Below are positions 1 to 19,220 of a stretch of 20,695 bases of DNA, in pieces; position 1 is the stretch's first letter, and each line of letters begins with the position of its first letter. Both the position numbers and the translations under genes were made by a program. The stretch comes from Deltaproteobacteria bacterium (GTDB taxonomy: Bacteria; JAUYMQ01): positions 1 through 20,695 of the forward strand of contig JAUYMQ010000306.1 in the NCBI GenBank assembly GCA_030698575.1, given 5' to 3'. A model generated the notes under the pieces. It made no database searches, was not told the DNA's origin, and saw only the letters and a list, made by a program, of their open reading frames with translations.

Positions 1-191
1 ATTCCCGACACGAAGACGGTCTGTTCCGGCGGAAGCTGCTCGGCCTCCAGCACTCGTTGCACACCGGTGAGAATGGCGTGGTCCCCGCAGCCGGGGCACC
101 ATCGCGGCGCGCCGCTGGAGTAATCCTGAAGGCCGTACTCATGCTCCTCGTCCTGTCCTGCCGTGAGCAGCGAGCAGCTGTTTCCCCTCAT
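1..191 (-). CDS. korB: 2-oxoacid:ferredoxin oxidoreductase subunit beta, N-terminal part (runs off window)
   Basis: This is the thiamine-diphosphate-binding beta subunit of a 2-oxoacid (probably 2-oxoglutarate):ferredoxin oxidoreductase, which decarboxylates the 2-oxoacid to its acyl-CoA and reduces ferredoxin in the cytoplasm. Only the first 63 residues are in the window. They contain the family hallmark RWCPGCGDHAIL, with Cys32 and Cys35 as expected [4Fe-4S] ligands, and a stretch ending in VFVSGI just before the ThDP site. The ATG (191-189) overlaps the stop of korA as ATGA, and GGGGAGG lies 5 nt upstream inside korA, so the start is well supported and translation is likely coupled. The rest of the gene is cut off by the window edge. 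Substrate assignment to 2-oxoglutarate is inferred from the subunit type and is less certain than the family. Confidence 0.92.
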   Translation of the reverse strand, partial: MRGNSCSLLTAGQDEEHEYGLQDYSSGAPRWCPGCGDHAILTGVQRVLEAEQLPPEQTVFVSG

Positions 192-2104
192 GCGGTCCTC
201 CCCTTGAGCAGAACGTTGCGGATGACCTCGTGGATCCGTCCCGGTCTGAGCGGCTGGCCCGGCACCCGGGTCCAGCAGTCGACATCGACGAGCGTATTCG
301 CCCGGAGAAGCCACGCGAGCTGGCCCATCCGCCGGTTCTCCGGCGTGATGTAGGGCGCGTCCGGTGCGTCGCTGTAGTTGATCTCCACCGTCATGACACG
401 ATTGAAGCGGCCGAAGATTTCCTTCAGGCCGGGCTGGAGCGGCGACAGGAAGGTGATGTTCGTCGAGGACACCCGATACCCCTCGGCCCTCGCCCGGTCG
501 ACCGCTTCCTCGATCGCCCCCTTGGTGCTGCCCCAGCCCACCACGAGGAGATCCCCGTCGGGGTCGCCGTGCAGGGCCGGCGGCCGGAGGGCCTTCTGGA
601 TCACTGCGAGCTTGCGGCTCCGCATGGCGCAGCCGCGCTCGTGTGCGTCCGGGTCATAAGCGATCTCGCTCGATTCGTCGTGGGCCAGACCCGTGAGCGT
701 GTGCATGCCCCCGGGTTGGCCCGGGATGATCCGGTGCGAGAGCCCGGTGTCTGGATCCCAGTCGAAGGGGCGGGCGCCCTGCGCCACCGGACTCTGGTCG
801 ATGGGCCCCGCCATCCAGCGCGGGTCGACTTCCGGCCGCGGATAGGGCTGGACGCCTGAGGCAAGGTTTGCGTCCGAGAGCACGATGACGACGCACCGGA
901 ACGTCTCGGCAATGCGCCGCGCGGTGATCATGAGATGAAAGCACTCGTCGATGGTGGCCGGCGCGATCACCACCCGCGGCGCATCGCCCGGCTGGCCGAA
1001 CAGCGCGGCGAGCAGGTCGGACTGCTCCACCTTCGTGGGCAGCCCCGTGCTCGGCCCTCCCCGCTGCACGTCGACGACCACCAGGGGGATCTCGCCCATC
1101 ACCGCGAGACCCAGAAACTCGGTCTTGAGGGCGAGCCCCGGTCCCGACGTGACCGTGAAGGCGACCTTGCCCGCGTAGGACGCCCCGATCGCCACGCCCG
1201 CCGCTGCGATCTCGTCCTCGGCCTGGTGAACCATGCCGCCGAACTCTTCGAAGATATCGCTCAGGTAGTGGCTTACGCTGGTCGCGGGCGTGATGGGATA
1301 CATCGCGCAGAGATCCATCCCGGCCGCAATCGCGCCGAGGGCCACGGCCTGGTTCCCGTTGGTCACCAGCATTGGCCCCTCTGGTTTGGTGGCGGGCACA
1401 TCGAAACGAAAGTCGAGATTGTCGTTGGCCCAGCGGTATCCGAGATCGAGGAGATCATGGTTGATCTTCACGACGTCCGGGGACTTCTTCCGGAAGGACT
1501 GCGCGATGAGGTCCATGATGAGCGCGACGTCTCGCTGGTACAGGCAGGCCAGCATCCCCAGAACGAACATATTCTTGCCGCGGCGGGGCGTGTCAACGAT
1601 CTCGAGGCACGCCTCCTCTATAGGCACCTCGATCAGCCTGTAGGAACGGCCCGCCAGCTCCTTCATCCCCTTTTGCCACTCCTCGCGGATGCGCTCGTCG
1701 TCGTGCCTGGACCAGAGGCTGTCGAGCAGGATGATCGCGTCATCCGACAACGCATCCAGGCGGTGGCGCCCGAGCAGAACTTGCTCGTTGAACGCGACGA
1801 CCAGGCCGGCCTGATCGCCCCAGTTCGTGACCGGTCCGCTGCCGATCCGGATCCGGTTGCCGCTCCCGCCGGCCGGCGAGCGGGCCGGCGGCTGAATTTC
1901 GGCCGGGATGATCTCCACGGTCCACACGCCGTTGCCCATGCGCGCGGAAACCTGCCCGAAGATCTGGCCGCACTTCTGCGCGCCCTCTCCGGGGTCGGAA
2001 ACTATCTCGATGGTATGCTCGGAAAGCTTGATGAGGCGGGGTTCAGGCGGCGCCACGCCCGCGGCACCGCCGTCGGGAGCCGAGGTAGAAGGGGTCTCCG
2101 TCAC
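188..2104 (-). CDS. korA: 2-oxoacid:ferredoxin oxidoreductase subunit alpha (gamma-alpha fusion)
   Basis: Alpha subunit of a KorAB-type 2-oxoacid:ferredoxin oxidoreductase, partner of the downstream beta subunit. From the GTG at 2104 the protein has 638 residues. A gamma domain covers about residues 25-205 (SDPGEGAQKCGQIFG region at 36-50). It is followed by the pyruvate-ferredoxin-oxidoreductase-type alpha domain, with MLVTNGNQAVALGA at 245-258 and the YPITP motif at 269-273. A transketolase C-like domain forms the end. I prefer the GTG at 2104 (GGAG 3 nt before it, protein begins VTETPSTSAP) over an upstream in-frame ATG at 2170, which has no visible ribosome site and adds an arginine-rich stretch that does not look like the family. 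The gene ends inside the korB start (4-nt overlap). Such enzymes serve an oxidative or reductive TCA cycle; the direction here is not visible. Confidence 0.93.
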   Translation of the reverse strand: MTETPSTSAPDGGAAGVAPPEPRLIKLSEHTIEIVSDPGEGAQKCGQIFGQVSARMGNGVWTVEIIPAEIQPPARSPAGGSGNRIRIGSGPVTNWGDQAGLVVAFNEQVLLGRHRLDALSDDAIILLDSLWSRHDDERIREEWQKGMKELAGRSYRLIEVPIEEACLEIVDTPRRGKNMFVLGMLACLYQRDVALIMDLIAQSFRKKSPDVVKINHDLLDLGYRWANDNLDFRFDVPATKPEGPMLVTNGNQAVALGAIAAGMDLCAMYPITPATSVSHYLSDIFEEFGGMVHQAEDEIAAAGVAIGASYAGKVAFTVTSGPGLALKTEFLGLAVMGEIPLVVVDVQRGGPSTGLPTKVEQSDLLAALFGQPGDAPRVVIAPATIDECFHLMITARRIAETFRCVVIVLSDANLASGVQPYPRPEVDPRWMAGPIDQSPVAQGARPFDWDPDTGLSHRIIPGQPGGMHTLTGLAHDESSEIAYDPDAHERGCAMRSRKLAVIQKALRPPALHGDPDGDLLVVGWGSTKGAIEEAVDRARAEGYRVSSTNITFLSPLQPGLKEIFGRFNRVMTVEINYSDAPDAPYITPENRRMGQLAWLLRANTLVDVDCWTRVPGQPLRPGRIHEVIRNVLLKGRTA

Positions 2105-2271
2105 GTTCTCCGATCCTTGTCCGATGCGTCCAGGCCGTCGTGCTCGATCATGCGCCCCCGGCGGATGCATCCGGAATGGGCCGGCAGGGCGCAGCCTGCC
2201 CTAAGCTAGTCACTCTCATGTGTTTTGCCACTCCCCTACCGATTTTATCGACCAGTGGCTCCCTCTTAATT

Positions 2272-9806: not shown

Positions 9807-10424
9807 TCAGCCCTCCGGCCCGGCGCTTTTCGTGTAGGAAGGGCGCGCTTTCAGGCGCTCGACCCAGGCCGAGAAGCGCGGGAACCGGTCGCCCACCTCG
9901 ATTCCGATCAGACCCAGAACGGTCACGTGAGGCGCCAGCGCGGCGTCGGCCAGCGTGAACTCGCCCGCCAGAAACGGACCCGATCCGAACCGCTTGTCGA
10001 GCTCCGCGACGGCACGCTCGATCGCCTTCGTCCGCCGGGTGATCATCTCCTTGTCGCGCTGCGGCTCTGGCTTCAGCAGGCTTTCCACCAGCACCGGGCC
10101 GAGGTTGGCGTGAAGATGCTGATTGGCCCAGTGGATGACCTGGCGCACGCGGGCACGGTCCGGCGCCCCCTCAGGCATGAGCGGCGGATCGGGGTAGTGC
10201 TCGTCGAGATAGCTGTTGATGATGTTTGATTCGTAGATCGTCAGGTCGCCGTCCACGAGGACCGGCACCTTTCCGAAAGGGTTCATCGCGAGAAACTCCG
10301 GCGTGCGGGTCTCCCCCTTCATGACGTTCAGGACTTTCGACTCGAAGTCGAGCCCCTTTTCCGCGAGAACAATGCGCACCTCGCGGCTGTTGCCCGATTC
10401 CCAGAAGTGGTAGAGCGTGATCAT
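9807..10424 (-). CDS. Glutathione S-transferase family protein
   Basis: A 205-residue GST with an N-terminal thioredoxin-like domain (about 1-80) and a C-terminal all-helical domain (85-205). The glutathione site is indicated by the SGNSREVRIVLAEKG segment near the N-terminus (Ser10/Ser13 are candidate catalytic serines), the cis-proline motif GKVPVLVDGD, and the ES pair in IYESNIINSYLDE. The helical domain carries the usual FTLADAALAP motif. Its ATG overlaps the hemY stop by 4 nt, and GGGAGGGAG lies 8 nt upstream within hemY, so it is the last gene of the heme operon. That position suggests a role in binding or detoxifying porphyrins or heme, but that is inference. The protein alone says only GST. 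Confidence 0.92.
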   Translation of the reverse strand: MITLYHFWESGNSREVRIVLAEKGLDFESKVLNVMKGETRTPEFLAMNPFGKVPVLVDGDLTIYESNIINSYLDEHYPDPPLMPEGAPDRARVRQVIHWANQHLHANLGPVLVESLLKPEPQRDKEMITRRTKAIERAVAELDKRFGSGPFLAGEFTLADAALAPHVTVLGLIGIEVGDRFPRFSAWVERLKARPSYTKSAGPEG

Positions 10425-11935
10425 CGCGTTGACTCCCTCCCGTTGAGATTCTCGAGGAGCGCTTCACCCGCCCCCTCTCTCCTCGCTTCGCCTGCCAGCT
10501 CGCCTGCCAGCTCGCCTGCCAGCCCGCCTGCCAGCGCGCCTGCCAGCTCGCCTGAATGAACGCTGTCGGGAATCCCCACGCCCTCCAGCCAGTTTCCCGC
10601 AAGAGCGAGGCCCCGATGCCGCGCCGCCGCGCGGCGGATCGCCTCGACACGCCCCAGGTGTCCGGGCTCGTACTGCGGCATCGAGGCGGGGTGGCGATGG
10701 ACCGCCGAGAAGATCGGCGGCTTCCGGACGCCCAGGATCTCCCCCAGCTCCGCGCAGGCCGCCTCGACCAGTGACGAATCCGGCGCTTCGAGTGAGCCGG
10801 GCGCGAGATTCCCGCCGAGGAAGGCGCGGATCAGCGCAACGCCCGGCGGCGAGCGCCCGTCGAACTTCACGCTCGAGAACGTCACCGCCAGGATTCGCCG
10901 CTTCTCCACCTGCGGTGCGACGAAGCCGAAGGCGTCGAGCGGGTGAGGGACGTCCTCCCGCGCCCAGGCCAGCGTCACGATGGCCGACGACGCCGTGCGG
11001 ATCGAGCCGAGGAGTGCGGACAGCTCCGGATCGAGCTCCGACAGCAGGCGCGCGCTCGCGGCGGCAGGCAGGGCCAGCAGCACCGCGTCGGCAGGAAGGC
11101 TCTCACCGCCGGCGAGGCCGAGCGCGAAGACGCCGTTCCGCCGGCCAAGGGACTGCGCCTCGACACCGAGCCGCAACCGGTCGGGCCCGATGACGCGGGC
11201 CAGGGCACCGGTCAGCGTCTGCATACCGGCGTCGAAAGAGGCGAAGAGCCCGTAACGTGCGCCGGAAGCGTTGCGCTGCTCGCCCGCGGTCGCGCGCAGC
11301 CCGCGGACGACGCTTCCGTAGTCACGCTCGAAGGCAGCGAAGCGTGGGAGGGTTGCGCGGAGGCTCAGCCCATCTGGACTGCCCGTGTAGATGCCCCCGA
11401 CGAGGGGTTGCGCGAGGCGATCCAGGCATTCCCGTCCCAGCCGGCGCCGGACGAACGCCCCCACGGATTCGTCCTCTTCCGCGGCGGCGCCACGGCGCCG
11501 GGGGATGAATGGCTCGCAGGCCGCCCGCAACTTTCCCCGCCAGGACAGCAGCGGGGTCGCGAGGAAAGCCGGCCATTCGGCCGGCGCCAGCAGCTGGAAG
11601 CCCTGCGGGACGGGGAGAAGCCGTCCCCGGTGCAGGATAAGGGCCCGGCGCGTGCGCGGATCGTCCCGTGTGGCCACCAGGAGTTCGCCGAGACCAAGGC
11701 GCCGCGCGAGGTTCTCCGCCCAGGGCTTTTCCGTGAAAAACGAATCGGCTCCCCACTCCACGAGGATTTCGCCGAGGGGTGTCGACTCGCGCGTCGTCCG
11801 GATGCTTCCGCCCGGGCGATCGGCCGCGTCGATCACCTGGAGATCGAGCGGTGCGCCGGCCGCTGCTGCCAGCTCCAGCACGCGGTGGGCCGCCGCGAGC
11901 CCCGTGATGCCGGCCCCGATCACGATGAGCTTCAC
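10421..11935 (-). CDS. hemY: Protoporphyrinogen/coproporphyrinogen III oxidase, FAD-dependent (HemY type)
   Basis: Oxidises protoporphyrinogen IX to protoporphyrin IX, or coproporphyrinogen III to coproporphyrin III, using FAD and oxygen. It has 504 residues. The Rossmann motif GAGITGLAAA is at 7-16, with DAADRPGGSIRT following, and the C-terminal FAD motif ALAGNWLEGVGIPDSVHSG closes the fold. The start is a GTG at 11935 that overlaps the hemH stop (GTGA), with no clear ribosome site, which suggests coupling. After the normal end of the fold a 43-residue tail (462-504) begins with five xLAG repeats encoded by a 12-bp tandem repeat. This tail is not part of the enzyme family. Whether the enzyme acts on copro- or protoporphyrinogen cannot be read from the sequence. 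Confidence 0.93.
   Translation of the reverse strand: MKLIVIGAGITGLAAAHRVLELAAAAGAPLDLQVIDAADRPGGSIRTTRESTPLGEILVEWGADSFFTEKPWAENLARRLGLGELLVATRDDPRTRRALILHRGRLLPVPQGFQLLAPAEWPAFLATPLLSWRGKLRAACEPFIPRRRGAAAEEDESVGAFVRRRLGRECLDRLAQPLVGGIYTGSPDGLSLRATLPRFAAFERDYGSVVRGLRATAGEQRNASGARYGLFASFDAGMQTLTGALARVIGPDRLRLGVEAQSLGRRNGVFALGLAGGESLPADAVLLALPAAASARLLSELDPELSALLGSIRTASSAIVTLAWAREDVPHPLDAFGFVAPQVEKRRILAVTFSSVKFDGRSPPGVALIRAFLGGNLAPGSLEAPDSSLVEAACAELGEILGVRKPPIFSAVHRHPASMPQYEPGHLGRVEAIRRAAARHRGLALAGNWLEGVGIPDSVHSGELAGALAGGLAGELAGELAGEARREGAGEALLENLNGRESTR
10489..10548. repeat. 12-bp tandem repeat, five copies, in the 3' end of hemY
   Basis: Five head-to-tail copies of CGCCTGCCAGCT, in which only the last base varies (T, T, C, G, T), followed by a half copy. 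The unit is a multiple of three, so on the coding (minus) strand it reads as repeated ELAG, with ALAG and GLAG variants, and copy number changes would keep the hemY frame. Confidence 0.95.
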
Positions 11936-12858
11936 TGGAGCGCCCGCACCGCGTCCGCGAGGGCGCGGATGAAGCGGGGGTGATCGAGGACGGTTCGCGC
12001 GCGGATGAGGCGGAGATCGAGCCTCTGCGCCGCGTCGGCGGCCTCTACGTCGAGATCGTAGAGGACCTCCATGTGATCCGACAGGAATCCGATCGGTGCG
12101 ACGACGGCGATGCGCGTTCCCCGACGCTTCTCGTCCGCCAGGGCGTCGCAGACGTCGGGTTCGAGCCAGGGGTCGGAAGGGCGCCCGCTACGGCTCTGGT
12201 AGACGAGCCGCCAGCGGCGCGGGCGCACCCGGGCGGCGACCGCCTCGCAGCTCTCCTCGAGCTGGGAGACGTAGGGCGTGGCCTTCGCGGAGGCGGTGGG
12301 GATGCTGTGCGCCGTGAAAAGCAGGACGCCGTCTCCGGCCCGGGTCGCCCTGAAGCCGGGGTCTGCCTCGCCTATCCGGTCGGCGACGGCGTCGATGAAG
12401 CCGGGATGGGCGTGAAACGATTCGGTGTAGACGACCTCCGGCGCCCGCTCCCCCAGTGCCGCGCGCGCGTCCTCGACGGCCTTCACGTACTTGTCGTAGG
12501 ACGCCGCGCCCGAACGCTGGGCGGCCATCACCACGCCGGCGGTCCGCCGGGCGCCGCCATCGACGAGCTCACGCAGCGCCTCGGCGGCGAAGGGCTTCCA
12601 GTGGCGGTTCCCCACCCGGACCGGCACGTCCAGGCCGTCCTCGCGTAGCGCTGCCTCGAGCTCCCGCGCCTGTGCAAAGGCGTGCTCGTTGATGGGCGAT
12701 CGCCCTCCGAAGTGCATGTAGTGCGGCGCGATCTCGGAAATCTTCCCGGCCGCTCCCGGCACGTTCCGGAGCACGTTTTCGAGAAAGGGAACGACGTCGT
12801 CGGGGCCCTCGGGCCCGCCGAAGCTCACGAGGATCACGCTGTCGATGGGCTCAGCCAC
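11932..12858 (-). CDS. hemH: Ferrochelatase (monoderm-like)
   Basis: Inserts ferrous iron into protoporphyrin IX or coproporphyrin III. It has 308 residues, the size of the soluble Bacillus enzyme. The predicted catalytic residues fall at His184 (FTAHSIP) and Glu264 (GFLSDHMEVLYDLD), almost the same positions as in Bacillus subtilis. The YQSRSGRPSDPWLEPDV motif is intact. The N-terminus (SFGGPEGPDDVVPFLENV) resembles actinobacterial-type coproporphyrin ferrochelatases, but the C-terminal cysteine cluster that binds [2Fe-2S] in many of those is absent. The start is GTG at 12858, overlapping the end of the hemDE fusion by 8 nt; the stop overlaps the hemY start by 4 nt. Confidence 0.94.
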   Translation of the reverse strand: MAEPIDSVILVSFGGPEGPDDVVPFLENVLRNVPGAAGKISEIAPHYMHFGGRSPINEHAFAQARELEAALREDGLDVPVRVGNRHWKPFAAEALRELVDGGARRTAGVVMAAQRSGAASYDKYVKAVEDARAALGERAPEVVYTESFHAHPGFIDAVADRIGEADPGFRATRAGDGVLLFTAHSIPTASAKATPYVSQLEESCEAVAARVRPRRWRLVYQSRSGRPSDPWLEPDVCDALADEKRRGTRIAVVAPIGFLSDHMEVLYDLDVEAADAAQRLDLRLIRARTVLDHPRFIRALADAVRALQ

Positions 12859-14800
12859 GTCGCGCGCTCATCTCGTGCACCGCCTCGACCAGCGCGATGG
12901 CGTGATCGACTGAGGTCTGCGGGAGGATGCCGTGCCCGAGGTTGAAGACATGGCCCGGCCGGCCGTCGGCGGCGTCGAGGATGGCCCGCACGCGCTCGCG
13001 AATGGTTTCAGGCGGCGCGAACAGCACCATGGGATCGAGGTTGCCCTGCACCCCGCGATCGTGCCCGACGCGCGCCCATCCCTCGGCCAGATCCAGGCGC
13101 CAGTCGAGGCCGATCACGTCGCCGCCCGCCTCGCGCATGAGATGAAGGATGCCCGCCGTTCCCGTCCCGAAGTGGATGACGGGGACGCCGGGGGTGAGCG
13201 AGCGGATCAGATCCCGGGTGTAGGGAAGCGCGTGGTCGGCGTAGTCGCGAGGCGAGAGGGCGCCGACCCAGCTGTCGAAGATCTGGACCACCTGCGCCCC
13301 CGCCGCGATCTGGGCGTTCAGGTGCCGGCCCAGGGTCCGCGTCAGCTTCTCCATGAGCGCGCGCCACGCGCCTGGATCGCGGTACATGAGCGTCTTCGTC
13401 TGCTCGAAGCTGCGTGAAGCGCCGCCCTCGCAGACATAGGAGGCGAGCGTGAAGGGCGCGCCGGCGAACCCGATGAGTGGAATGTCGGGTGGGAGCGCAT
13501 CGCGCGTGAGGCGAATGCCCTCGTAAACGTGGGGGAGAAACTCCAGGGGATCGATCTCCCGCAGCGCGTCGACGGCGCCCGCGCTGCCGACAGCGCCGTG
13601 AAGCACCGGCCCATCACCGGCCACGAACTCCAGCCGCGCGCCCATTGGATCGAGCGGCAACAGGATGTCCGAAAAAATTATGGCGGCGTCGACGCCGAGC
13701 CGCTTGGCGGCGGTCACGGTCACCTCGCAGACGAGCTCGGGGCGGCGGCAGAGATCGAGGAACCCGACCTTGGCCCTGACGGCGCGGTACTCGGGCATGT
13801 AGCGCCCCGCCTGGCGCATGATCCAGATGGGCGTGTAGGGAGCCGGCTTCAGGCGGCATGCCTTCATGAAGGGGCTTTCTTCGAGGCGCGCCTGGCGGTC
13901 GGCCGCCGGAGCGGCGCGCGCTTCCCCGCGGGGCATCTCGACGGCGGGCCCGAGCGCCGCCTCGCGCTTCGCCGCAAGCCACTCCGCGGCGCCCTCGGCG
14001 GTCTCGCGGATGAGCGGTCCCATTTTCGGATGAGAGGGTTCGAAGTCCACCGGGCACCTCTCGCGCCGGAGCGCCTCGGAGCAGACCGGGCCGACGGAGG
14101 CGACGACCATGGAGGCCAGGGCGCCGCGGAGTTCATCTTCGAGCGATTCCTCGCGCGCGATCCGGAAGAGATGATCCACCTGCGTGGCGTTTGTGAACAT
14201 CGCCACCTGTACCCGCCCCGCGGCGATCTCCCGCACGGAGGCGCGAAGCGGCCCGGTGTCCTCGGGCAGGGCCCAGCGGTAAATCGGCACGGGCAGCACC
14301 TCGGCCCCCCTGGCTTCGAGCCCCCGGACGAGATCGGCGTTGGAGACGCCGTATTCCTGCACTGCCACCCGCTTGCGGGAGAGCGGCGTGGCGGCGTCGA
14401 GCGCCGTGAGAAGTTCGCGCCAGGTGTTCGGTTCCGGCACCAGGATGTCGACCCGCGCTCCCAGTTCGCGGAGCGCGGCGACAGGCTTGGGACCGCGCGC
14501 CACGACCAGCGTGCCGCCAAGGGCCTCGGCGAGGGCCTCGCGCGGGAACGAGGGCGCCAGGGCAGTCGCCAGGGTCCGGGTGCCGACGCCGGTCAGGAAG
14601 ATGACGACGTCGATGGTTCCGGCGCGCAGAGCTTCGAGGAAGGGCTGGAGGGCGGGCGGGTTCTCGATGGGAATTTCGCGGAGACTCGGCACGACGAGAG
14701 GAACGCCGCCATGGCGTGCAATGCTCTCGGACATCGTTTCAGCGTGGCGGCTCTCGGGAGAGAAGACTCTGAGACCGCCGAAATTAGCGCGCTCCCTCAT
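12851..14800 (-). CDS. hemDE: Fused uroporphyrinogen-III synthase / uroporphyrinogen decarboxylase (HemD-HemE)
   Basis: One uninterrupted frame of 649 residues with two heme-pathway enzymes. Residues about 8-272 are HemD-like (cyclises hydroxymethylbilane), with SPESRHAETM, VVIFLTGVGTR, VAVQEYGVSN, PIYRWALPEDTGPLR and FTNATQVDHL. A linker of roughly 38 Ala/Arg/Glu-rich residues follows. Residues about 308-649 are a full-length HemE (decarboxylates uroporphyrinogen III to coproporphyrinogen III), with RQAGRYMPEYR at 329-339, catalytic Asp378 in FSDIL, IFDSWVGALSP and FNLGHGILP. The HemE part has no credible start of its own: the only nearby ATG (13936) lacks a ribosome site. The ATG at 14800 precedes the HemD fold directly but also has no clear ribosome site. 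It heads the operon hemDE-hemH-hemY-gst. A base-call error joining two genes is the main alternative. Confidence 0.9.
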   Translation of the reverse strand: MRERANFGGLRVFSPESRHAETMSESIARHGGVPLVVPSLREIPIENPPALQPFLEALRAGTIDVVIFLTGVGTRTLATALAPSFPREALAEALGGTLVVARGPKPVAALRELGARVDILVPEPNTWRELLTALDAATPLSRKRVAVQEYGVSNADLVRGLEARGAEVLPVPIYRWALPEDTGPLRASVREIAAGRVQVAMFTNATQVDHLFRIAREESLEDELRGALASMVVASVGPVCSEALRRERCPVDFEPSHPKMGPLIRETAEGAAEWLAAKREAALGPAVEMPRGEARAAPAADRQARLEESPFMKACRLKPAPYTPIWIMRQAGRYMPEYRAVRAKVGFLDLCRRPELVCEVTVTAAKRLGVDAAIIFSDILLPLDPMGARLEFVAGDGPVLHGAVGSAGAVDALREIDPLEFLPHVYEGIRLTRDALPPDIPLIGFAGAPFTLASYVCEGGASRSFEQTKTLMYRDPGAWRALMEKLTRTLGRHLNAQIAAGAQVVQIFDSWVGALSPRDYADHALPYTRDLIRSLTPGVPVIHFGTGTAGILHLMREAGGDVIGLDWRLDLAEGWARVGHDRGVQGNLDPMVLFAPPETIRERVRAILDAADGRPGHVFNLGHGILPQTSVDHAIALVEAVHEMSARRG

Positions 14801-14935: not shown

Positions 14936-15688
14936 ATGAAAAGCAGTGACAGAAACGCCTTCATCACCCGCCCGTCGGTCTGGAACCTGCTCGGAGAAAT
15001 ACGCTGGGTGGGGGAGTGGGTCGCGGGGAGCCTGCGGCGGGAGATGACCGATCTGCCCGAGGGTGACGGCCACGCTGTGCTCCTTCTGCCGGGCTTCCTT
15101 GCCTCTGACCGCTCGCTCGCGCCCCTGGCGCGCACGCTCCGCCGGCTGGGCTACATCACCTACCGTTCGGGGTTCAACCCCAACCCCGGGCCGACGCGCC
15201 CGGCCCTGGACTGGCTGCGCGGTCGTGTGGTCGAGGTCATGGAGCGCGCCGAGACCCCGATATCGATCGTGGGCCAGAGCCTCGGCGGGATTTACGCGCG
15301 GGAGATCGCCCGGAACTACCCGTCGCGGGTTCGATGCGTAATCACGATGGGGAGCCCGTTCCAGGCGCCCGAGAACACCAACGCCTCGCTGGTCGCGACG
15401 GCGCTCGGGCGTTTCTGGGGCCGGGAGGAGAGAGAGTCTCGCCCCGCGCTCTCCGAGCCGCTCACAGTGCCGACCACCAGCGTCTTCAGCCGATCCGATG
15501 GCGTCGTTCCCTGGGAAGCCTGCATCGAGGCGCCCGGCCCGCAGCGGGAGAACATCGAAGTCCGCACGAGCCACATCGGCATGGCCGTTCATCCGGCGGT
15601 GATCCGCATCGTGGCCGACCGGCTCGCGCTTCCGCGGGGCGGATGGCGTCCCTATGCCTCCTCCGAAGGCTCGGCCGGAACCGCCTGA
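14936..15688 (+). CDS. Alpha/beta hydrolase (lipase/esterase-like)
   Basis: A 250-residue serine hydrolase of the alpha/beta fold. The oxyanion-region motif LLLPGFLAS (49-57) is followed by the nucleophile elbow GQSLGG with Ser115. The probable acid is Asp188 (SRSDGVVPW) and the base His213 (TSHIGMAVHP). The layout resembles triacylglycerol lipase/PGAP1-like esterases, which act on acyl esters; the true substrate is unknown. No signal peptide is visible, so it is probably cytoplasmic. The ATG at 14936 follows AGGAGG by 11 nt. The open frame runs far upstream through the antisense of hemDE, but the family similarity begins only after this ATG. It is divergent from hemDE, sharing a 135-nt control region. 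Confidence 0.88.
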   Translation: MKSSDRNAFITRPSVWNLLGEIRWVGEWVAGSLRREMTDLPEGDGHAVLLLPGFLASDRSLAPLARTLRRLGYITYRSGFNPNPGPTRPALDWLRGRVVEVMERAETPISIVGQSLGGIYAREIARNYPSRVRCVITMGSPFQAPENTNASLVATALGRFWGREERESRPALSEPLTVPTTSVFSRSDGVVPWEACIEAPGPQRENIEVRTSHIGMAVHPAVIRIVADRLALPRGGWRPYASSEGSAGTA

Positions 15689-16195: not shown

Positions 16196-17767
16196 TCAGG
16201 GCGAGGCCTTCTCCGGGAGCAGGCCGGGCTGCATCGGGGCCAGCTCGTCGGGAATCTCGCGGAGCTGGATGATCAGCTCGTCGAGCCGCTCGTTCACGTG
16301 CCCCGCGTACTCGTAGAAGTGCTTGTGGACGAGGGCGAAGAAGACGGCTTCCCGCAGGGCGGCGGGCCGGCGAAGAGCCGTCTGGACCACCATCGAGATC
16401 GTCATCCAGGCCCGCCTCGGCGAGGCGTTGAGCACGCAATCGCGGAACATCCTGAAGAGAACGCCAATGTCTTCCCGCCGCGTCGTGATCTTTCCCGTAA
16501 CCTGCCGCCCGCGCCGCATGAGGTAGTCCATCGTCCGCTGCTTGTAGTTCCGGTAGTCGTAGAGCCGCTCCAGCAACGCCCGGTAGCCCTCGTAGAGCTC
16601 GAGGCGGCTCATCGCCTTCGGAATGACGTTCGTAAAGACGAACTGATCGCCGACACTTTCCGCGATGAGCCGGCCCGCCTCGCGAAGCCGCTGGTGAAGC
16701 GGCGTTTTCGGCATCGCGTTGAGCATTCCCGTCATCGACACCGGAATGCGCGCGTCCTGGATGAACCGGAACTGCTCGTCGAAGATGTCGGTGTCATCGT
16801 GATCGAACCCGACGATCATCCCCGCCTCCACCTGGATGCCGAAGGACTGGATGTGATGGACGTTATCCAGGATGTCGCCCCGGGCATTCTGCGTCTTGTG
16901 GGTCTCGAGCAGCGATTCTTTTCGAGGGCTCTCTATGCCTACGAAGATGGTGGTCATGCCCGCGTCGCGCATGAGCGCGAGCAGTTCGTCATCCCCCGCC
17001 ACGTTCAGCGAGACCTCGGTGTTGAACTCGATGGGGTAGCCCCGCTCTTGCTGCCAAGCCGTGATCGCCCGGAGCAGCTCCTTGGCCAGTTTCTTGTTCC
17101 CGATGAAGTTGTCGTCGACAAGGAATATGCCGGTCATTCCCAGGCGGTAAACCTCTTCGATCTCGGCCATCACCTGCGCGACGCTCTTCGCGCGCGGCTT
17201 GCGCCCATACATGACGATGATGTCACAGAACTCGCAGTTAAACGGGCATCCGCGCGCGAACTGGATGGTCATCGTCTGGTAGCGGTCGGTCTTCATGAGG
17301 TCGAAACGGGGGAGGGGAGAGTCGAGCATGCTGGGCTTCTCGACCTGCCGGTAGACCTCGAGATGCTCCCCGCGGGCATAGTCCTCGAGGAACTGCGGCC
17401 AGGTGTACTCCGCCTCATCGACGAAGCGCACGTCGACCTTCCCCTCCAGCTCCTCCGGGCAGAGCGAGACGAAGGGCCCGCCGACGACCACGAATTTTCC
17501 CCGCCGCTTGAACTCCGCCGCGATCTCGAGAATGCGGTTCTTGTGGACGATGAAACCGGTGATGCCGATGATATCGGCGTCGGTGTCGAAGTCGACGTCT
17601 TCCACATTCTCGTCACAGAGAACGACCTCGTGCGCGCGAGGCGTGATGCCGGCGACGGTTGGCAGCGAGAGGTTCGGGAAGACGCAGCGTTTTCCCAGGC
17701 TCGACAGGATCCGATCCATGGTCCAGAACGACTCGGGGTTTTTGGGCGCGATGAGATAGATCTTCAT
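16196..17767 (-). CDS. B12-binding-type radical SAM protein (DUF4070-like C-terminus)
   Basis: A 523-residue protein related to cobalamin-dependent radical SAM enzymes. Residues about 1-145 form a Rossmann-type B12-binding-like domain (DADIIGITGF, FVVVGGPFVSL) without the DxHxxG motif. The radical SAM barrel starts near 160 with Cys174, Cys178 and Cys181 (CPFNCEFC) for the [4Fe-4S] cluster, and includes DDNFIGNKKLAKELL and VGIESP. A helical C-terminal region (about 375-510) looks like the DUF4070 domain shared with hopanoid methylase HpnP-like proteins. It probably alkylates or methylates an unactivated carbon in a lipid or similar substrate, but the substrate is unknown and HpnP identity is not claimed. 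The ATG at 17767 has GAGG 7 nt upstream; the frame continues upstream without family similarity. Confidence 0.9.
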   Translation of the reverse strand: MKIYLIAPKNPESFWTMDRILSSLGKRCVFPNLSLPTVAGITPRAHEVVLCDENVEDVDFDTDADIIGITGFIVHKNRILEIAAEFKRRGKFVVVGGPFVSLCPEELEGKVDVRFVDEAEYTWPQFLEDYARGEHLEVYRQVEKPSMLDSPLPRFDLMKTDRYQTMTIQFARGCPFNCEFCDIIVMYGRKPRAKSVAQVMAEIEEVYRLGMTGIFLVDDNFIGNKKLAKELLRAITAWQQERGYPIEFNTEVSLNVAGDDELLALMRDAGMTTIFVGIESPRKESLLETHKTQNARGDILDNVHHIQSFGIQVEAGMIVGFDHDDTDIFDEQFRFIQDARIPVSMTGMLNAMPKTPLHQRLREAGRLIAESVGDQFVFTNVIPKAMSRLELYEGYRALLERLYDYRNYKQRTMDYLMRRGRQVTGKITTRREDIGVLFRMFRDCVLNASPRRAWMTISMVVQTALRRPAALREAVFFALVHKHFYEYAGHVNERLDELIIQLREIPDELAPMQPGLLPEKASP

Positions 17768-17773
17768 GAGCGA

Positions 17774-17806
17774 GCCTCGTGAGGCACCCGGGCGCCTTTC
17801 GAAAGG
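17774..17806. promoter_or_regulatory. Three contiguous palindromes in the radical SAM leader
   Basis: In 33 nt the sequence holds GCCTC-GT-GAGGC (17774-17785), GGCACCC/GGGCGCC with one mismatch (17783-17796), and the perfect 12-bp CCTTTCGAAAGG (17795-17806). They abut or overlap by one to three bases. The first contains the GAGG ribosome site of the radical SAM gene, so alternative pairings could hide or expose it. Confidence 0.5.
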
Positions 17807-17838
17807 TTCACGCGGTCCGGCCTGGAAGCAGTCGTTAG

Positions 17839-17867
17839 CTACTATCACGCCAACCCCGCGTTGGCAA
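17839..17867 (-). promoter_or_regulatory. Candidate promoter of the radical SAM gene with embedded operator-like repeat
   Basis: On the minus strand TTGCCA (4 of 6) is followed after 17 nt by TAGTAG (3 of 6). The overlapping GATAGT is a better -10 but sits at only 15 nt. A perfect inverted repeat, GCCAAC-5 nt-GTTGGC (17849-17865), overlaps the -35 and spacer, which is a usual place for a repressor site. The predicted leader is about 65 nt and would include the three palindromes. Confidence 0.35.
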
Positions 17868-18065
17868 GCGCGGGAACGCCGACCGACGCTCTCCTCCAGC
17901 ATCGCCGGCGACGCTACTTTCGCGGCGCGCGATCGGCTATGCTGGCCGCTCCCCGGGAGGCGAGACCCGTCGCCTGCTGCTTCAACAGGGCGGGCAAGCT
18001 CGGCCGCTGGCGTCGTCGAGTCATCCTTACGAATCATCACTATTCAAGCGAAGGAGTTCCGGATC

Positions 18066-19220
18066 ATGAATCGCAGGTCGTTTCTCAAGAGTGCGGGCGC
18101 TGTCACGGTGGTCGCCATGGCGGGCGGCGTGTGGCAGGCCTGCGGGAAGGGCGACGCGGGACCCGAGGGCGGCGTGGCGTTCGAGCCCTGGCGGAACTGG
18201 CAGGGAACTCCCGAAGAGGGGCCGCTCGCGCTTGTGCGCGCCGGCATTCTCGCGGCGAGCCCGCTGAACACGCAGCCCTGGATCTTCCACGTGACGGAGG
18301 ATCGCATCGACGTCTTCCTCGACACCGCGAGGCTGCTTCCCGCCACCGATCCCTTTCAGCGGCAGGCGCACATGGGCCTCGGCTGCGCGGTGGAGAACAT
18401 GGTGGAAGCCGGAAGCCCGAACGGCTACCGGGTGCAGGTGACGCTGCCGGCGGCGGGCGACGCCGCCGCCGGAGCGGACAAGCAGGCACCCGTCGCCCGT
18501 CTCGATCTCGAGCGCGTGAGGCCTGGGTTGCCTGTATTTCTCCATCTGGTTTCCAAGCGCCACACGAACCGGGGGCCTTACGATCCCGCCCGGGCGATAT
18601 CGGAGGAGTTCCCGCTCTCGATGAAGCTCGGGATGGAGACCTATCCGAGCATGGACCTCGTCTACCACCTGGAACCGCCTGCGCGGGATCGTCTCGGGAA
18701 GGGCCTCCTCGAGGTCACCGAGGCGCTTCTATCAGAGGATGAAGTTCTCCAGGAGATGATCCGCTGGTCCCGGCGGGACCCGGCCGCCGCGAACAAGTCC
18801 CGCGATGGCGTGATGCAGGGTGCCGCAGGCGGGTCAGGCGGCGATGCGCCGGAGGCCGTGGCGGAAGCGGCGCGCCGCGCCGCGAAAGAGCAGATTTCCT
18901 CGGCGGCGTGCCTGGGCGTTCTGGTCTCCAACAACCCCTACGATCGGCGCGAGGCCGTGGCGGCGGGGAGGCTCATGCAGCATTTCTACCTCTGGTCGAC
19001 GAGTTTTGGCATCGCGATGCAGCCGCTCTGCCAGCCCATCACCTTTCTGGACCGGGAGCGCGCGCGGAACGACGCACGCCCGCTGCCAGCCGATCTGACG
19101 TCGCTCCTGCCGCCGATCGGCTGGCAGCCGATGTTCGCGTTTCGCATGGGATACGCCCTGTCCCCCGCCGGACCGAGCCCCCGTCGGGGCCTCGAGGATG
19201 TCGTGAAGAAAGGGCTATAG
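18066..19220 (+). CDS. Tat-exported nitroreductase-family (Acg-like) flavoprotein
   Basis: A 384-residue nitroreductase-fold protein of the Acg type. A twin-arginine signal (RRSFLK at 3-8, then a hydrophobic stretch) ends near Cys26 in WQAC, which resembles a lipoprotein site but has Trp and Gln instead of the usual small or aliphatic residues at -3 and -2. The mature protein has the FMN-site motif SPLNTQPWIF (65-74), an HTNRGPYD segment (about 160-167), and a late region MQHFYLWSTSFGIAMQPLCQP typical of the family's second half. Export by Tat fits a folded FMN protein acting in the periplasm or attached to a membrane. Substrate is unknown; Acg proteins may sequester or reduce flavins and nitro compounds. 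AAGGAG lies 9 nt before the ATG. It is followed after 42 nt by the enolase-superfamily gene. Confidence 0.87.
   Translation: MNRRSFLKSAGAVTVVAMAGGVWQACGKGDAGPEGGVAFEPWRNWQGTPEEGPLALVRAGILAASPLNTQPWIFHVTEDRIDVFLDTARLLPATDPFQRQAHMGLGCAVENMVEAGSPNGYRVQVTLPAAGDAAAGADKQAPVARLDLERVRPGLPVFLHLVSKRHTNRGPYDPARAISEEFPLSMKLGMETYPSMDLVYHLEPPARDRLGKGLLEVTEALLSEDEVLQEMIRWSRRDPAAANKSRDGVMQGAAGGSGGDAPEAVAEAARRAAKEQISSAACLGVLVSNNPYDRREAVAAGRLMQHFYLWSTSFGIAMQPLCQPITFLDRERARNDARPLPADLTSLLPPIGWQPMFAFRMGYALSPAGPSPRRGLEDVVKKGL

Follow-up and report, generated by a model that had tools for sequence, protein, structure and literature searches.

A HEM4-HemE fusion in a haem operon recurs beside a second, canonical HemD

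A single open reading frame in the stretch of DNA analysed here (the window, 20,695 nucleotides from a Deltaproteobacteria bacterium) joins a uroporphyrinogen-III synthase-like (HEM4) domain to uroporphyrinogen decarboxylase (HemE). This fusion recurs in other genomes beside a second, canonical HemD that is usually fused to CobA, which suggests a private supply step for each branch of the pathway. The routes to haem and to sirohaem and vitamin B12 diverge at uroporphyrinogen III, and how cells divide it between them is little understood. We lean towards the view that the HEM4 half is a second, haem-dedicated synthase (HemD2) linked to HemE, and that CobA-HemD serves the sirohaem and B12 branch.

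The fusion and its parts are located as follows.

12851..14800, (-) strand: hemD2-hemE fusion ORF, 649 aa with no internal stop, with full-length orthologues in other genomes
14009..14737, (-) strand: HEM4 (uroporphyrinogen-III synthase-like) domain of the Thermus/NnaR-type subfamily, residues 22-264 by Pfam
13880..14008, (-) strand: linker of about 43 residues (265-307), the gap between the Pfam domains
12872..13879, (-) strand: URO-D (HemE) domain, residues 308-643 by Pfam

A preliminary description had placed both domains in one 649-residue frame, and translation is indeed uninterrupted, with both halves well above their Pfam cutoffs (125 bits versus 27.5 for HEM4 and 419 bits versus 23.9 for URO-D); Pfam found no CobA domain in the ORF. 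It had also held that the HemE half lacks a start codon with a ribosome site of its own, in agreement with the absence of a clear Shine-Dalgarno sequence at either of the ATGs at residues 289 and 312. The linker that it described is present, but its length by Pfam boundaries is about 43 residues rather than about 38; in the predicted model it forms a helix (about residues 260 to 283), a low-confidence loop (284 to 293) and a further helix (299 to 307). The model of the whole protein (pLDDT 91, pTM 0.61) leaves the relative orientation of the domains uncertain, with no reliable facing of the active sites. The frame stays open upstream to 913 aa, but the upstream part underlies a divergent alpha/beta-hydrolase gene (14936-15688, + strand), and fusion orthologues begin near residue 1 of the 649-aa ORF.

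The window's genome is a draft of 653 contigs, in which a sequencing or assembly error might have fused two separate genes. The chance of this is negligible. Fusions that are 57% and 48 to 49% identical end to end occur in genomes of other families, excluding a frame error and establishing that the fusion is real. Thirty-six other full-length fusions, 46 to 58% identical, come from independent assemblies, and the coding pattern of G+C by codon position runs unbroken across the HEM4/URO-D junction; together these also rule out a chimaeric assembly.

The HemE half scored 400 bits against the hemE equivalog model (NCBIfam TIGR01464, cutoff 303) and is the sole URO-D match in the genome. Its active-site motifs line up with those of solved UROD sequences. 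Across 37 fusions R329, R333, D378 and Y455 are invariant and H623 is nearly so; we take the first four to be the counterparts of human UROD R37, R41, D86 and Y164. The model of this half folds as UROD (Z of about 51 to UROD structures), and Foldseek matches to cobalamin-independent methionine synthases were set aside as reflecting its shared barrel fold. Judged by its sequence, the HemE half looks fully functional. As the only URO-D protein, with this score, these motifs and this fold, it must be the cell's working HemE if haem is made by this route, a conclusion drawn from the gene content of a draft that is 92% complete.

The fusion is followed by three overlapping genes.

11932..12858, (-) strand: hemH, ferrochelatase (PF00762, 249 bits), its first 8 bases shared with the end of the fusion
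10421..11935, (-) strand: hemY, protoporphyrinogen/coproporphyrinogen oxidase-like flavoprotein (PF01593), with a 4-base overlap with hemH
9807..10424, (-) strand: glutathione S-transferase-like gene, with a 4-base overlap with hemY

The glutathione S-transferase-like gene is probably the final gene of the fusion-hemH-hemY operon. The order hemD2E-hemH-hemY was seen in the window and at most fusion loci. Elsewhere in the window, positions 188-2170 (- strand) encode the gamma and alpha parts of a 2-oxoacid:ferredoxin oxidoreductase as a single polypeptide of 660 residues, with POR and POR_N domains. Downstream of the hydrolase gene, on the opposite strand, is a gene for a radical SAM protein that also has B12-binding and DUF4070 domains (16196-18040, - strand), and a 484-aa open frame at 17766-19220 (+ strand) had no Pfam match at E <= 1e-5.

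The N-terminal half had been described as HemD. The domain is HEM4, but it is a divergent second paralogue, and the canonical HemD sits elsewhere in the genome: a second HEM4 match (216 bits, where the fused HEM4 half scored 128) lies on contig C227, as a CobA-HemD fusion flanked by hemC and hemB, and this chain also carries the genome's sole CobA match. Given this CobA-HemD, the HEM4 half cannot be the sole HemD of the cell. The HEM4 half fell below every NCBIfam synthase equivalog cutoff (135 bits against 273, 121 against 233, 77 against 246 and 25 against 275), its highest-scoring model, at 135 bits, being that of the NnaR family (NF005568). When the HEM4 half alone was searched against the PDB with phmmer there was no match, and a profile was required. 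The profile of its subfamily, which we label HEM4f, matched Thermus thermophilus UROS at E 2e-16 and other solved UROS only at E 0.05 to 0.08.

The model of the HEM4 half has the uroporphyrinogen-III synthase fold, superposing 251 residues on 1wcx (Z 24.1, rmsd 3.9). Residues invariant in the 37 fusions, the window's included, are E16, R18, T70, G71, G73, R102, K105, Q148, Y174 and Q207, among others; we take Y174 to be the cleft tyrosine, the counterpart of human Y168. In a tree, HEM4f, Thermus-type and NnaR proteins separated from canonical HemD with full support. Within that group, Thermus-type proteins and fusions retain Q207, which is absent from all three NnaR sequences; G71 is kept in the fusions and gone from two of the three.

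We found the fusion in many other genomes, so it is not unique to the window's. The genomes of the 36 others that we aligned are unrelated and bear about a dozen phylum names, and both Pfam domains were confirmed in the four fusions checked. Among 98 broadly sampled genomes, G031 (57% identity) and G070 (49%) had full-length fusions, each followed by hemH, and a HEM4-HemE-sized frame (at least 642 residues) occurred in 10 of 386 sampled genomes. When the HEM4 half was used to scan named genomes, 80 of 350 relatives were kept, and 27 of the 80 were fusions, most of them followed by hemH and/or hemY. Since the search was seeded with fusions, these counts are not prevalences. The 27 fusions are from records named, among others, Tectomicrobia, Omnitrophota, Acidobacteria, Latescibacterota, Armatimonadetes, Abditibacteriales, Binatia, Dadabacteria, Planctomycetota, Thermodesulfobacteriales and FCPU426. 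One Omnitrophota genome (G138, loci L231 and L110) carries one HEM4f fused to HemE and another that stands alone, plus a canonical CobA-HemD.

In the HemE tree the fused HemEs formed one group with seven separate HemEs nested in it (SH-aLRT 91, or 95 without the window's row), and the row nearest to the window's was an Armatimonadota fusion, 69% identical. In the HEM4 tree the fusion label changed 10 times, at least four of the changes being forced by supported branches, and in several close relatives (L065 and L108 among them) the hemD2-type and hemE genes are separate and overlapping. Both trees are compatible with a single ancient fusion that was later split several times; repeated fusion is the alternative.

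To look at the two HemDs together, we surveyed 68 genomes: 50 with HEM4f that were reached by loci and 18 from broad samples, of which 15 had HEM4f or Thermus-type HEM4 and three had NnaR. A canonical HEM4 was also present in nearly all of them, being missing only from G112, G119, G137 and G262. The contig ends at that point in G262, which accounts for its missing copy; G112 and G137 also lack hemC; and G119, which may be incomplete, has hemC and lacks both CobA and canonical HemD. None of the 68 was a clean genome with HEM4f as its sole HEM4.

Where both neighbourhoods could be read, hemE-linked HEM4f was paired with a CobA-fused canonical HemD in 40 of 40 cases. By contrast, where the gene linked to HEM4f or Thermus-type HEM4 was cobA, SirC or a sirohaem reductase, canonical HemD was CobA-fused in none of ten cases and unfused in all ten (one of them, L171, judged from a congener). 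Relatedness leaves one to three independent contrasts on the tree behind this pattern, which is also partly forced, since a CobA beside HEM4f cannot at the same time be fused to HemD. A CobA-HemD-sized frame was found in about 32 of 64 genomes with a single HEM4 and no HEM4f, so a rate of 40 in 40 is above background. In Thermus genomes the crystal-type UROS adjoins sulfite/nitrite reductase, SirC, PAPS reductase and CobA, and canonical HemD adjoins hemA. In the Thermus-like genomes G019 (loci L237 and L261) and G216 (L238), this Thermus-type synthase, the one with solved structures, is in a sirohaem/sulfate-assimilation cluster, and a second, canonical HemD is beside hemA.

Other placements of HEM4f were also seen. 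Nitrospirota (L050, L051, L057-L059, L066, L072 and other Nitrospira loci) have a stand-alone HEM4f in addition to a CobA-HemD fusion; neither haem nor sirohaem genes lie within 4 kb of the HEM4f gene. In G382 a HEM4f gene lies inside a nitrate-assimilation cluster. At locus L232 (G104:C349, 823-2388, - strand) a HEM4f-GAF-ANTAR protein is encoded next to genes for a nitrate transporter, an assimilatory nitrate reductase and a NirB-like protein; it is apparently a HEM4-based nitrate regulator of a second kind, independent of NnaR.

If the HEM4 half is HemD2, it would cyclise hydroxymethylbilane to uroporphyrinogen III, which the tethered HemE would decarboxylate to coproporphyrinogen III for HemY and HemH, encoded downstream of the fusion. 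The CobA-fused canonical HemD would supply the sirohaem/cobalamin branch, and at uroporphyrinogen III each branch would then have a separate synthase joined to the enzyme of its first committed step. Channelling between the two halves, raised in the preliminary description, might accompany such an arrangement. A broader proposal, which we make tentatively and rate at somewhat less than an even chance, is that many bacteria partition uroporphyrinogen III in this way, with CobA-HemD and HemD2-HemE as two dedicated, branch-attached synthases, a general and undescribed device.

The main rival to HemD2 gives the HEM4 half no catalytic role: it would be a ligand-binding domain for sensing hydroxymethylbilane or uroporphyrinogen III and would tune or load HemE, all uroporphyrinogen III coming from CobA-HemD. 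Such a role is in keeping with the top-scoring NCBIfam model, since the HEM4 domain of the nitrate/nitrite regulator NnaR reportedly has no HemD activity (PMC6277429, PMC11162112). The HEM4f-GAF-ANTAR protein beside nitrate/nitrite assimilation genes would be another regulatory use, and the sub-cutoff scores against all the synthase models, the near-universal retention of canonical HemD and the want of a clean genome with HEM4f alone all point the same way. The fused HEM4 nevertheless keeps residues that NnaR has lost (Q207, and G71 in two of three), and some stand-alone relatives adjoin cobA or sirohaem genes, an enzyme-like placement. In addition, a member of the same clade, Thermus UROS, was reportedly crystallised together with its product (Schubert 2008). 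We therefore regard a sensing role as unlikely, at roughly a one-in-four level of belief.

Both halves might instead be active and fused only for equal expression or local concentration, the two HemDs being interchangeable, with neither dedication nor channelling. This would accord with the view, cited in PMC4921024, that enzyme fusion alone did not promote channelling, and with the separate, overlapping genes of close relatives. Yet both HemD paralogues have been retained across many phyla, with hardly any losses, and each keeps to its own gene partners. Interchangeability predicts neither, and we consider this explanation improbable. A dedicated HemD2 remains the reading that we prefer.

A fusion survey of 12,000 genomes lists CobA-HemD and HemC-HemD in its Table 3 and has no HemD-HemE (PMC4921024). 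The earlier remark that no characterised HemD-HemE fusion was known thus still stands: we found no description in the open papers searched, though the architecture may be catalogued elsewhere without having drawn study. With HemD2-HemE and CobA-HemD in one cell, dedicated supply is open to direct test by two knock-outs. The arrangement would also caution against labelling every HEM4 protein a housekeeping synthase; by its gene neighbours, the Thermus enzyme used as a structural model appears to be the sirohaem-side copy.

Among known systems, CobA-HemD and HemC-HemD likewise join HemD to a neighbouring pathway enzyme, but they use canonical HemD, whereas the fusion here pairs HEM4 with HemE, an enzyme of the haem branch. 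Its C-terminal half is a HemE above the curated cutoffs (PF01208, TIGR01464), 47% identical to the Pseudomonas aeruginosa structure 4wsh; it differs in its added N-terminal HEM4, which we found in no described HemE. The nearest solved relative of the HEM4 half is T. thermophilus UROS (1wcw, 3d8n), with which it has the TG-G, RG-K, Q-x-YG and Y motifs in common; that enzyme, however, stands alone, and its gene adjoins sirohaem and sulfite/nitrite reductase genes, not hemE. NnaR, a HEM4 domain with an OmpR-type DNA-binding domain, provides the top NCBIfam synthase score (NF005568), but it lacks Q207, and the fusion has HemE (URO-D) in place of the DNA-binding domain and scores 135 bits, below the NnaR cutoff of 273.
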